Assembly: GCA_964019415.1 (NCBI GenBank)
Contig: OZ025873.1
Location: 653,125-717,124, forward strand
Direction of reading: 5' to 3'
Length of the DNA: 64,000 bases
DNA from: Ianthella basta
Taxonomy: Eukaryota > Porifera > Demospongiae > Verongiida > Ianthellidae
Positions 10,001 through 60,300 of this stretch are shown here, piece by piece. A model generated the notes under the pieces. The model did not search any database and was not told the DNA's origin. It saw only the letters and a list, made by a program, of their open reading frames with translations. The first letter of the stretch is position 1. The number at the start of each line of letters is the position of its first letter. Both the position numbers and the translations under genes were made by a program.

Positions 10001-13000
10001 TGTTTTTAGTAAACACACCTACCAGGTAGTGTACGTTACAACAAAGTGACAATGTGACACAAGCAAGGAGTCCTGAAACAGTAGTGGTATACTGCAAGTG
10101 GTGGTAGCCTATCCTACGTAGCTAGACCAGCTTTCCTCCTGTAGTTTGACAAGACCAAAGTGCTCTTACAGTATATGTTCTGTGAATGTGTGTGAGACTG
10201 AGTGACAGAGTAGGTACATAGTCACTGATGATAGCCTGACCCGCTAGACCCTCTCATCTCTATCCACTCCAAGTTGAAGTTCCTAGTAGTGTGTCACCTC
10301 TGTTTCCTCCCTGTCTGTGTGTGATGTAGTGTGTGTCCCTCCTCACCTCCTGTTTGTTCACCCTTGGTTTGCTATCCCCTCACATCTTTGAGCACCCCTT
10401 ACTCCTGAGGTGTGTGTGTATGTGCGTGTGTATGTGTGTGTGTGTGTGTACGTTCACATACCATGTGTATGTACGTAGGTCTGTATACACACACATGCTC
10501 TTCACTGTGTCAATGGTGCGGGAGTGTAGAGTAGGAAGCTAATAGTTGTTAGACCTTTCTACTGAAGGCAGCCTCTTCTCCAGCCTACTTTCTAATGATG
10601 TAGAAGCACCTTCCTACTAGGTAGTTGTTAGTAGTGCACATGATGAGTGTGATGTGTGGACTTTCCTCTCTCTATGCAGGGTGGGAAAATGTTCGATGGC
10701 TATGGCATGGTGAAAAAGGTATGTGTAAGCAACCGTGTATATACTTAACATACATACATACATACATGAATCGGCCTATTACAGCACTGGAGTTAGAAAG
10801 TAAGAAGCTAAAATGTGTGCAAGTCCATGAAAGAGTTCAGATGGATACTGGCCTAACAGTAGCTAGCTAAAATGATTCGTTTTCCACTTGGCCTGTTGGT
10901 AGTTACTCTTTCTTTCTGCTTTCTAACCACTCTCGACTGGCACTGATGAAGCTGTGCGATACTCAGGGCCGTCACCCACCTGAGCCAGGATCTTTTTCAC
11001 TGTGGCACACGATTGAAGGTGTCTACACAGCCCACATGTAGCCGTTGCAGCTGATAGCACTGTGGAAACATCACGCAGTTCGCCAATGGCTGTGGAGAAG
11101 TTAGGAGAGCCTTCTATGGGGAGGATGGTTGGATTGTTGGTGTGGCGGCCCATAGAAGACGATTATGTAGTCCCCAGAGATGCTCGATGGTCTGCGTCGT
11201 TCGGAAGTGGTACTCGCTGCTGACGAGGAACCTCAGCATTGTTACTGTGGGTTCTGTTCTAGGTAGAATCAGTAGTTGTAGCTGTAAACTGTGAACTGCT
11301 CACTGGCAGTGTGACAACACATGGAGTAGATGGAATAATTAGCTTCAGTACTGTAAGCTGTAAACTGTTGACTTGAACCAAAGTGCCTAATGGTCCCTTG
11401 TCAACTCAAGTGACTACTAGTGTTGCTATAGTAACTGTTTACTCCAACACTATTCTATTGTAATAGAAGAGCACCCCTCACTCCTGAGGTGTGTGTGTGT
11501 GTGTGTGTGTGTGTGTGTGTGTGTGTGTGTGTGTGTGTGTGTGTGTGTGTGTGTGTGTGTGTGTGTGTGTGTGTGTGTGTGTGTGTGTGTGTGTGTGTGT
11601 GTGTGTGTTTGTGTACGTTCACATACCCTCTCATCTCTATCCACTTCAAGTTGAAGGTCCTAGTAGTGTGTCACCTCTGTTTCCTTCCTGTCTGTGTGTG
11701 ATGTAGTGTGTGTCCCTCTTCACCTCCTGTTTGTTCACCCTTGGTTTGCTATCTCCTCACATCTATGAGCACCCCTCACTCCTGAGGTGTGTGTGTGTGT
11801 GTGGTAATTGTATTCCCTATTTTGTGTATGCTAATGTGTGATTGTCCTCCCTGTCCCTTCTCTCCTCAGTCAAAGCAGTTCTTGCTGAGCTACGACGAGC
11901 TGACCTGATCACTAGTGAAGAGTGCAGGAGGCTGATGGGCACTGGAAATGATCACATTGGACTGTTTCCTTTCTCTTACGCCAAGGAACTCAGCATCAGT
12001 GATGTGGCTAGAGTTCAGCAGGTCAAGTCTCCTGAAGTGATGGCCAAAACTGCTGATGTTCTGAGAAGACGTGGATTTGAGTCCGAGTCCGAACTCCTTG
12101 CAGGTAGACAGTCCAGCCCCTCATCCATTTGCCTGTGTTATGTTGTACAGTGGATCCTCCTTATGACAGATACCTTGTGACATCCACTACTGTCCACTGA
12201 TAGGTGGTGTCCTTGGTTGAGATGTCATTTCCATTCCCACCCAGAAGCTGTTTGTTCTTGTATGTCCACTAGTCATCCACTGTTTGCAGTGTCCCATGTC
12301 AGAGGCTCTACTGTGATGTGTGCTGTGTACTAGAGTGTACCTCCTTACTGTAGTGCATACTGACTGGAGCATACGTAGAAGTATTTTCCAAACATGTTTC
12401 TTTTAGTGACCTATGTGTAAATCTATGTAGTAACCTTTACACATGCTAAAGTGAGTGTGTGTGTTTGTGTGTTGTGAGTATGTTTAATCTTGAGTGGAGG
12501 TAAATGAATACACAGTTCTGATGAAGTTGTGTGAATGTGTGTGAGACTGAGTGACAGAGTTGGTACACAGTCACTGATGATAGCCTGACCAGCTAGACCC
12601 TCTCATCTCTATCCACTCCAAGTTGAAGTTCCTAGTAGTGTGTCACCTCTGTTTCCTCCCTGTGTGTGTGTGATGTAGTGTGTGTCCCTCCTCACCTCCT
12701 GTTTGTTCACCCTTGGTTTGCTATCCCTTCACATCTATGAGCGCCCCTCACTCTAGAGGTGTGTGTGTGTGCTTGTGTGTGGTAATTGTATTCCCTATCT
12801 TGTGTATGCTAATGTGTGATTGTCCTCCCTGTCCCTTCTCTCCTCTCTCCCCCAATTCTTGCTGAGCTACAACAAGCTGACCTGATCACTAGTGAAGAGT
12901 GCAAGGGACTGAGTGATCCCATTGATGTGGTAAGAATTCAGCGTGCCAAGTCTCCTGAAGTGGTAGCGAAGACGGCTTCTATTCTGAGTAAAGCTGGATT

Positions 13001-57300: not shown

Positions 57301-60300
57301 CTGTCTGTGTGTGATGTAGTGTGTGTCTCTCCTCACCTCCTGTTTGTTCACCCTTGGTTTGCTATCCCCTCACATCTATGAGCACCCCTCACTCCTGAGG
57401 TGTGTGTGTGTGCTTGTGTGTGGTAATTGTATTCCCTATCTTGTGTATGCTAATATGTGATTGTCCTCTCTGTCCCTTCTCTCCTCAGTCAAGGCAGTTC
57501 TTGCTGAGCTACGACAAGCTGACTTGATCACTAGTGAAGAGTGTGAGACACTTGAGGACCACAGGTGGCGGTGGGATGGCCCGAGTGATGTGGTTGAGAT
57601 TCAGTGTGTCAAGTCTCCTGAAGTGATGGCCAAAACTGCTGATGTTCTGAGAAGACATGGATTTGAGTCCGAGTCCAAACTCCTTGCAGGTAGACAGTCC
57701 AGCCCCTCATCCATTTGCCTGTGTTATGTTGTACAGTGGAGCCTCCTTATGACAGACACCTTGTGACATCCACTACTGTCCACTGATAGGTGGTGTCCTT
57801 GATTCAAATGTCATTTCCATCCCCACCCAGAAGCTGTTTGTTCTTGTATGTCCACTAGTCATCCACTGTTTGCAGTGTCCCATGTCAGAGGCTCTACTGT
57901 GACATGTGCTGTGTACTAGAGTGTACCTCCTTACTGTAGTGCATACTGACTGGAGCATAATATATGTAGGATTATTTTCCAAATGTGTTTCTTTTAGTGA
58001 CCTATGTGTAAATGTATGTAGTATCCTTTACACATGCTAAAGTGTGTTTGTGTGTGTGTGTGTGGTGAGTATGTTTAGTCTTGAGTGGAGGTAAATGAAT
58101 ACACAGTTCTGATGAAATTGTGTGAATGTGTGTGAGACTGAGTGACAGAGTTGGTACACAGTCACTGATGATAGCCTGACCCGCTAGACCCTCTCATCTC
58201 TATCCACTCCAAGCTGAAGTTCCTAATAGTGTGTCACCTCTGTTTCCTCCCTGTCTGTGTGTGATGTAGTGTGTGTCCCTCCTCACCTCCTGTTTGTTCA
58301 CCCTTGGTTTGCTATCCCCTCACATCTATGAGCACCCCTCACTCCTGAGGTGTGTGTGTGTGCTTGTGTGTGGTAATTTTATTCCCTATCTTGTGTATTG
58401 CTAATGTGTGATTGTCCCCCCTGTCCCTTCTCTCCTCAGTCAAGGTAGTTCTTGCTGAGCTACGACAAGCTGACCTGATCACTAGTGAAGAGTGCAGGAG
58501 GCTGAAGGACACTGAAAATGACTACACGAGACTGTATTACCCCCTTTACACCAGGGAATTCAACATCAGTGATGTAGTTAGAGTTCAGTGTTTCAAGTCT
58601 CCTGAAGTGATGGGCGCAACTGCTGATGTTCTGAGAAGACATGGATTTGAGTCCGAGTCCAAACTCCTTGCAGGTAGACAGTCCAGCCCCTCATCCATTT
58701 GCCTGTGTTATGTTGTACAGTGGAGCCTCCTTATGACAGACACCTTGTGACATCCACTACTATCCACTGATAGGTGGTGTCCTTGATTCAGATGTCATTT
58801 CTATCCCCACCCAGAAGCTGTTTGTTCTTGTATGTCCACTAGTCATCCACTGTTTGCAGTGTCCCATGTCAGAGGCTCTACTGTGACGTGTGCTGTGTAC
58901 TAGAGTGTACCTCCTTACTGTAGTGCATACTGACTGGAGCATACGTAGGATTATTCTCCAAACGTGTTTCTTCTAGTGACCTATGTGTAAATGTATGTAG
59001 TATCCTTTACACATGCTAGAGTGAGTGTGTGTGTTTGTGTGTGGTGAGTATGTTTAGTCTTGAGTTGTGGTAAATGAATGCACAGTTCTGATGAAGTTGT
59101 GTGAATGTGTGTGAGACTGAGTGACAGAGTTGGTACACAGTCACTGATGATAGCCTGACCCGCTAGACCCTCTAGATCTCATCTCTATCCACTCCAAGTT
59201 GAAGTTACTAGTAGTGTGTCACCTCTGTTTCCTCCCTGTCTGTGTGATGTAGTGTGTGTCCCTCCTCACCTCCTGTTTGTTCACCCTTAGTTTGCCATCC
59301 CCTCACATCTATGAGCACCCCTCACTCCTGATGTGTGTGTGTGTGTGATTGTGTGTTGTAATTGTATTCCCTATCTTGTGTATGCTAATGTGTGATTGTC
59401 TTCCCTGTCCCTTCTCTCCTCTCTCCCCAGTTCTTGCTGAGCTACGACAAGCTGACCTGATCACTAGTGAAGAGTGTGAGGGACTGACTTGCCCCAGTGA
59501 TGTGATTAAAGTCCAGTGTGCCAAGTCTCTTGAAGTGCTGCTCAAAACTGCTGATCTTCTAAGAAGACATGGGTTTGAACAAGTACCCGAACCTGCAGGT
59601 AGACAGTCCAGACCCTCAGCTGTTTGTCTGTATACATGTTATAGTTGTATTATGGCTGCGTGGGCGTTATCTAATTTGACTACGAGTGCGTTAAATTAGA
59701 TTAATGCCCAAGCGTGCCATAGTATAACTGGCTTGTTGTTTTTCGAACGAGAATGGTTTGAATCGTTGGATGAATCAAGCTACAAAGTCGTTTCCTACGA
59801 CAGATGCTTATGGACTTAGGAGGATATGGTGAAAAGGAAGTGATTAGAGAGGGCACAGGACCGAATACCTCCAATAAACCTACTTCTTCGTTGAACCATT
59901 GAACATTTCGCTGCCAAACGTGTAGCGGATGGGATCAGAAGGAATGCGCAAGAGTTTGGAAGGAGCCCTCTGTAGAAGAAGTGCTGTTCTTGTTTGGCCG
60001 CGACCAGTGGAACTTAGTAGCTAGCTACGTACTTTCGCCGGAAACGAGGCTCCGTGAAGGGTGTTTTAGCATGGCAACACAGCCATTGATTACAAGGAAA
60101 TTACGCACGCCAGGCCTTACCCAGTTACCTGATTTTGCTGTAATAAATGGAGACAATGGTGACTAGGCAGCCACTGTAAGTATGTAGAGAAGGCTCTGCT
60201 TAGCTACTTGGAAACGTTTTAGCTTGCATGTAGCATTGTTGTGCAGCAGTCAAAGCCCATTGTATTGAGAAACGAGTTGGACAATTGCGTGTGAAAAGCT

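Follow-up and report, generated by a model that had tools for sequence, protein, structure and literature searches.

Most known cases of diversified recognition involve domains that are extracellular or of the LRR type. Here we consider a tandem array of death-fold genes in the sponge Ianthella basta, examined through a stretch of 64,000 nucleotides (C6:653125-717124 of the 209-Mb genome; hereafter the window). The closest described pattern is the accelerated segment switch in exons (ASSET) of snake three-finger toxins, in which exon segments of duplicated genes are replaced by unrelated sequence while the introns stay alike; the mechanism is unsettled and a change of surface is proposed (PMC2711939). 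The closest module-shuffling architecture is that of the brown-algal ROCO LRR exons, for which alternative splicing is reported (PMC11378527). Sponge NOD-like receptor (NLR) repertoires, such as that of Dysidea avara, offer a third comparison, comprising expanded immune genes that bear CARD or DEATH domains (PMC12909245).

The window holds the first exons of four array genes (A to D) and the tail of a fifth, and belongs to an array of approximately 340 kb containing 23 copies of a signature exon. As in the toxins, an exon is radically changed among copies whose introns are alike. Unlike the toxins, the array genes are death-fold genes and probably intracellular, and their variation is greatest in the first coding exon (E1), whose counterpart in the toxins is a conserved exon for the signal peptide (PMC2711939). 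With the ROCO genes the array shares one repeat per exon, a single phase, shuffling, few positively selected surface sites, and a proposed role as an immune repertoire; however, its module, here called a cassette, is CARD-like rather than an LRR and contains a loop of variable length (PMC11378527). In contrast to the sponge NLRs (PMC12909245), no NACHT or LRR domain was detected in a Pfam scan covering part of the array exons. The available text of that paper reports no family like the present array, and no published account of this gene family was found in the open-licence literature.

Variation in first coding exons and cassette loops

We analyzed 271 kb of the array, namely the window, C6:540001-653200, C6:717001-790000, and a few kb beyond these at match loci, in part masked. 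The genes were found to run from E1 through one or more mini-exons, 1-11 cassettes and the signature exon into a tail, and some lacked a recognised E1 or mini-exon. At E<0.01, 62 cassettes were detected; a degenerate copy (747225) and a fragment in the window (25304; C6 678428) were dropped, and the 60 usable cassettes carry 52 distinct loops. Candidate splice sites were read from the sequence, with an in-phase AG near the start of 61 of 62 cassettes and an in-phase GT near the end of all 62, and by this prediction cassettes enter and leave in phase 1. The predicted exons are thus symmetric in phase with one module each, and because this single phase is shared, the reading frame would survive the gain, loss or skipping of a cassette. 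Mini-exon length was divisible by 3 in 16 of the 17 with a recognised donor; an 18th match had no recognised donor. The exception, at C6:719289, is a damaged copy with a frame-breaking length and a stop. When its exons were joined in frame, the predicted model of gene A stayed open from E1 into the tail.

E1 presents a stronger case of hypervariability than the loop. We found 19 E1s (18 distinct), all on C6, of which 14 came from a flank search of the 271 kb and five from genome-wide patterns; the genome-wide pattern search returned no further E1s with such flanks outside C6. Among the 14 (91 pairs), the 200-bp flanks differed by medians of 2% and 1%, and the E1 sequence after ATGAGT by a median of 0.577 compared to 0.603 when shuffled. 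Across the 18 distinct E1s the median was 0.561 (shuffled, 0.603), and some relatedness remains because 3 of 153 pairs differed by less than 0.35 compared to 0 of 459 shuffled pairs. Gene copies g66 and g76, with aligned blocks approximately 92-99% identical and an identical cassette loop, carry different E1s (37 and 43 nt), and the genes at C6 positions 693231 and 882221 have an identical E1.

It was established that this hypervariability preserves the frame. E1 length ranged from 22 to 112 nt and was 1 mod 3 in 19 of 19, and the 17 distinct ATG-bearing E1s contained no in-frame stop in 239 codons, whereas the other two frames had 27 stops in 239 codons and 12 in 222. Relaxed constraint or decay into pseudogenes is already disfavoured by these two observations and by the loop dN/dS above 1 described below, and we regard it as highly improbable, even though one E1 (752101) is a pseudogene that has lost its ATG and contains a stop, a few cassettes have damaged acceptors, and the mini-exon at 719289 is frame-broken.

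E1 and loop could also be rewritten by directed diversification, through hypermutation or templated segment exchange, with selection merely keeping the frame. The variation begins after ATGAGT and stops at the donor, and some E1s look chimeric, such as 739663, which has one stretch close to its start in common with 660178 and another close to its end in common with 763774. There is no agreement on the ASSET mechanism in snake venoms (PMC2711939), and in the short class the loop had 1.4 times the silent scale of the C half. By site, however, the silent rate of the loop in that class (1.08) resembles that of the C half (1.34, 1.05). The longest E1, the sole one tried, had no second copy in the genome, and exact 14-mers of E1s recurred in the 271 kb solely in other E1s. 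Three of the four closest duplicate sets had identical loops, and the fourth showed 4 replacement and 0 silent changes in 21 codon comparisons. On this balance, directed diversification appears unlikely.

The earlier note on the window had described a hypervariable cassette loop between nearly identical introns, and this observation was confirmed overall. Where it counted about eleven cassettes, tblastn recovered 11 full cassettes and the fragment at 25304. Measured from after SEEC to before DVV, the loops fell into three length classes of 7, 14 and 25 codons, which correspond to the earlier estimates of about 4, 10 and 21 residues. The long-loop pair had 10 identical, 1 silent and 14 replacement codons among 25, in agreement with an earlier 7:1:14 over 22, and the medium-loop pair showed the same pattern (5, 1 and 8 among 14). 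The introns of the long pair are nearly alike, with 7 differences in 200 positions on the 3' side and 5 in 169 on the 5' side. The description of the flanking exon as nearly unchanged held for the N half of the long pair (1 of 16 codons) but less well for the C half, which had 7 replacement and 1 silent changes in 35 codons. Nor is the loop the chief variable piece, since E1 is more variable and the mini-exons also vary among copies. The W-type mini-exons gave a dN/dS of 1.59, which was not significant with 5 sequences. Selection on E1 and the mini-exons would fit these patterns.

Codon evolution and CARD relationship of the cassettes

We sought to weigh the proposal of strong diversifying selection on the loop. 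An MG94-type codon model on exon trees gave loop omega (dN/dS) values of 1.66 for the short class (n=41), 2.37 for the medium class (n=10), and 4.90 for the long class (n=4), compared to 0.76-1.37 in the flanking exon blocks. The joint loop omega was 2.0 on a grid of eight values (likelihood-ratio test statistic, LRT, 12.1; p=0.0005). Among 50 seven-codon windows in the short class, the highest positive LRT (9.9) was obtained for the window starting with the loop. By site in the same class (n=39), the loop had a median beta of 3.50 and alpha of 1.08, compared to beta of 0.39-0.93 and alpha of 0.65-1.34 elsewhere, and the N-block residues D, L, E and C were under purifying selection. Loop dN/dS above 1 is therefore established, and intron divergence lies below loop divergence; the strength of selection had been overstated, through comparison with introns that appear homogenised.

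Several results weigh against diversifying selection centred on the loop. In NG86 counting, the excess of loop dN over dS was not significant (p=0.23, 0.23 and 0.058 for 18, 22 and 23 disjoint pairs), the single-class loop tests gave p=0.052, 0.062 and 0.006, and loop-only trees gave p=0.070 (short) and 0.079 (medium). Two windows at the exon start reached omega 2.25-2.40 (LRT 4.4-4.7), two N-block sites looked positive, and the top window of the medium class (LRT 6.2) began two codons before the loop, whose own window scored 3.5. The trees are wrong wherever cassettes recombine, and the long-loop set comprised four sequences, two with identical loops. In addition, part of the contrast between exon and intron reflects intron homogenisation, because the silent sites of the exon also exceed the introns: over all 45 pairs of the medium class, the proportion of silent differences (pS) was 0.154 in the N block, 0.172 in the loop and 0.110 in the C block, with 0.033 and 0.044 in the introns. 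When pairs are chosen for their small 3' intron distance, the divergence of that intron is underestimated, and the 1.5-2.2% so obtained was not used as an estimate.

Loop and intron distances were uncorrelated (r -0.32 to 0.003). It follows that the introns have been homogenised or the loops exchanged, and therefore that the exon/intron contrast alone is no gauge of selection. These silent-site and distance results would suit a simple difference in age, in which exons hold old neutral variation beside homogenised introns and no positive selection has acted. The signature exon lends itself to the same account, with a silent scale that varies by region from 0.29 to 1.67 and omega of 0.44-1.00 among 18 copies. 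Nevertheless, a loop omega of approximately 2 beside 0.76-1.37 in neighbouring blocks of the same history, together with frame-perfect E1s, makes the age difference an improbable explanation.

The cassette is related to the CARD, as the earlier note had proposed. In hhalign, it reached 87.5% (E=3.6e-6) against seven CARDs of the same genome and 0.3% against eight Death domains; the CARD set represents seven of 8 loci, one having been excluded for a stop. With 92 sequences the value was 82.3%. No CARD (PF00619) match over the Pfam cut-off was found in 8 cassettes and 5 composites, and a PDB sequence search with the cassette profile returned one irrelevant match (E=1.2). The AlphaFold model of a cassette aligned best to APAF-1 CARD residues 23-89. 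Modelled alone, the cassette has five helices that would correspond to CARD helices 2-6 (H2 to H6), with the caution that designed helical proteins score nearly as high. On this model, the cassette looks like a CARD that lacks its first helix, and the loop, a low-confidence, non-helical stretch, links H3 and H4. The cassette thus differs from the CARDs of APAF-1 and RIP2 in having no helix 1, no Pfam score, and a hypervariable H3-H4 segment of 7-30 codons. E1 and mini-exon probably supply H1; their global alignment with CARD helix 1 is weak (18.7%; the gene B composite used there had one codon too many, at 94 nt where 91 was correct).

Features of the window and the array

The coordinates of the array exons in the window are collected in the table.

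Table. Array exons in the window (window positions). Cassette coordinates from 23901 onwards are match coordinates, with splice sites within a few bases.
Feature	Position	Strand	Remarks
Upstream gene, C-terminal death domain, open frame	4946..5479	+	Pfam Death E=4e-6, over cut-off
Gene A, hypervariable E1 (MSGEDRFRDFLR), phase 1 end	7054..7090	+	ATG after conserved untranslated region, GTGAGT donor
Gene A, mini-exon (REERRKK), length divisible by 3	7730..7753	+	
Gene A, second mini-exon (WENVRWLWHGEK)	10680..10718	+	
Cassette 1, long loop (loop codons 11926-12000)	11870..12103	+	AG/GT sites, phase 1-1
Cassette 2, short loop	12856..13026	+	Splicing doubtful because acceptor is CAA, not CAG as in sister copy C6:769300
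Gene A, signature exon (~344 aa)	14489..15519	+	
Gene A, tail exons, acidic/basic low-complexity	15640-15703, 15857-16087	+	In-frame join
Gene A, likely terminal exon, death-domain-like, start approximate	19940..20257	+	Death E=0.0052, below cut-off
Gene B, E1	22088..22178	+	Usual donor is ATGAGT; in-phase GTAAGC upstream available
Gene B, mini-exon (LKEVERQRKK)	22790..22822	+	
Cassette, short loop (KGLSDIS)	23901..24074	+	
Cassette, short loop (RRLWDCR)	24824..24997	+	
Cassette fragment, N half degenerate	25304..25426	+	
Gene B, signature exon, core match	27479..28516	+	
Gene C, E1	40107..40170	+	Identical E1 at C6:882221
Gene C, mini-exon (SEERRKR)	40733..40756	+	
Gene C, second mini-exon	43351..43389	+	
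Cassette, short loop (KGLSDII)	45204..45377	+	
Cassette, medium loop	46134..46331	+	
Mini-exon between cassettes	47171..47203	+	
Cassette, short loop (RRLRYCS)	47747..47926	+	
Gene C, signature exon, core match	50601..51632	+	
Gene D, E1 (MSRGSLGYWLR)	54291..54324	+	
Gene D, mini-exon (REEEEERRIE)	54997..55029	+	
Cassette, short loop (LWLSDIS)	55781..55957	+	Usual AG is GG; in-phase CAG nearby
Cassette, medium loop (ETLEDHRWRWDGPS)	57491..57691	+	
Cassette, long loop	58442..58675	+	The modelled cassette
Cassette, short loop (EGLTCPS)	59430..59598	+	In-phase donor GT at 59599
Gene D, signature exon, core match	61589..62620	+	

Of the 28 matches to the signature exon query (344 aa), 23 lie at C6:557-889 kb. 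The others comprise a single match at C6:1.59 Mb, three stop-containing pieces on C7, and a weak match on C3. For this exon 61 homologues were found, and the copies of genes B, C and D had no Pfam match over the cut-off. Its silent scale was 1.67 in the first 75 codons and 0.29 in the last hundred; these variable first 75 codons were considered as a second selected region and rejected at an omega of 0.74 (18 copies). A genome search with the cassette, in which 150 of 300 candidates were scored, returned at least 132 matches, at least 75 of them in the array (two cassettes counted as two pieces each) and at least 57 outside it on C4, C5, C10, C16, C20, C21, C52, C75 and other parts of C6. Exons resembling the cassette also cluster at C16:4.02-4.49 Mb, C21:1.06-1.16 Mb, C10:2.58-2.92 Mb and C20:2.53-2.54 Mb. 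Across the whole genome there were at least 110 CARD and at least 150 Death exon-level matches, many of them clustered (150 candidates scored each).

A death domain over the Pfam cut-off was found within the array in the tail of the upstream gene, and the copy in gene A fell below it; the tails of other array genes had weak or no CARD or Death matches. Two more kinds of C-terminal exon are common to array genes (574-1308, 28810-29499 and 51821-52531 in the window), with 7 and 9 copies in the 271 kb. Neither of the two frames scanned gave a Pfam match, and these exons showed no clear relation to CARD or Death. An open frame at 16898-18469 (-) has weak, below-cut-off reverse-transcriptase and GIY-YIG matches and resembles a Penelope-type retroelement. 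A THAP and DDE_Tnp_4 transposase frame lies at 31250-32881 (+), between the gene B signature exon and gene C, and adjoins a frame with a YqaJ match and a weak SWIM match at 33134-34867 (-). One 26-bp tandem repeat unit was encountered at two sites, 36862-37520 (~25 copies) and 4682-4820 (~5 copies).

A possible repertoire on a CARD contact face

Taken as a whole, the earlier reading of diversifying selection on one face of a death-fold domain serving as a recognition repertoire was partly supported. The array proteins are probably intracellular, as no signal peptide was apparent by eye and some end in a death domain. We lean, by a narrow degree, toward an intracellular recognition or pairing repertoire diversified in the germline, in which variation falls on CARD H1, on the H3-H4 loop and on part of H4, and H2-H3 remain constant. 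In RIP2, type I contacts run from H1 and H4 to H2 and H3, and type III contacts from H3 to the H3-H4 loop and the start of H4 (PMC6168553). A variable contact face is proposed because these contacts map onto the varying presumed H1, the loop and an H4 position, while H2-H3 is nearly constant and partly under purifying selection. The face would comprise H1 and H4 (type Ia) with the H3-H4 loop (type IIIb), and the H2-H3 surface (types Ib and IIIa) would stay constant.

Under this proposal, germline diversification of a tandem family would have affected one face of a CARD at the N terminus, with H2-H6 provided by the cassette and H1 presumably by E1 and mini-exon. Duplication, unequal exchange and conversion would keep introns, untranslated regions and constant exon parts alike. 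Selection would act on E1, the mini-exons, the H3-H4 loop and an exposed H4 position; there it would favour new residues and changes of length that keep the frame, and it would shield these same pieces from homogenisation. Cassettes could be added, lost or skipped without a change of frame, and the variable contact face would feed a constant signalling tail. Which proteins trigger death-domain signalling, be they non-self, self or partners, may then depend on the specificity of this face.

Judged from sequence, a recognition or specificity repertoire is compatible with the data, and two other explanations predict the same pattern. Pathogen proteins may target the CARD face, which would then change to evade them. 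Such escape would leave the same signatures, a loop omega above 1 and one apparently variable face, but the coexistence of so many different copies (52 loops in 60 cassettes) better fits a repertoire, and escape seems doubtful. Alternatively, each CARD may assemble with its own copies alone, so that paralogues diverge at the contact face against cross-talk. The variable regions do match surfaces that serve as CARD contacts in RIP2, with H1 and H4 in type Ia and the H3-H4 loop in type IIIb (PMC6168553). The partner surface H2-H3 is nearly constant, however, and matched self-pairing would therefore have to proceed without a co-varying side, so we consider such insulation rather unlikely.

Extending the repertoire reading further, we offer one decidedly tentative idea. 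In an animal without antibodies, the CARD contact face might act as the variable region of intracellular germline recognition. A first exon that can be switched would carry helix 1, and cassettes that can be added would carry the H3-H4 loop; segment switching restricted to exons would outpace the introns, and the signalling tail would be common. A repertoire that rests on the contact face of a death fold would be unusual, and would make the family a candidate for invertebrate immune or self/non-self specificity. The array also offers a compact natural case, with 19 first exons and flanks almost identical in the 14 compared, for how exon segments switch while introns do not.

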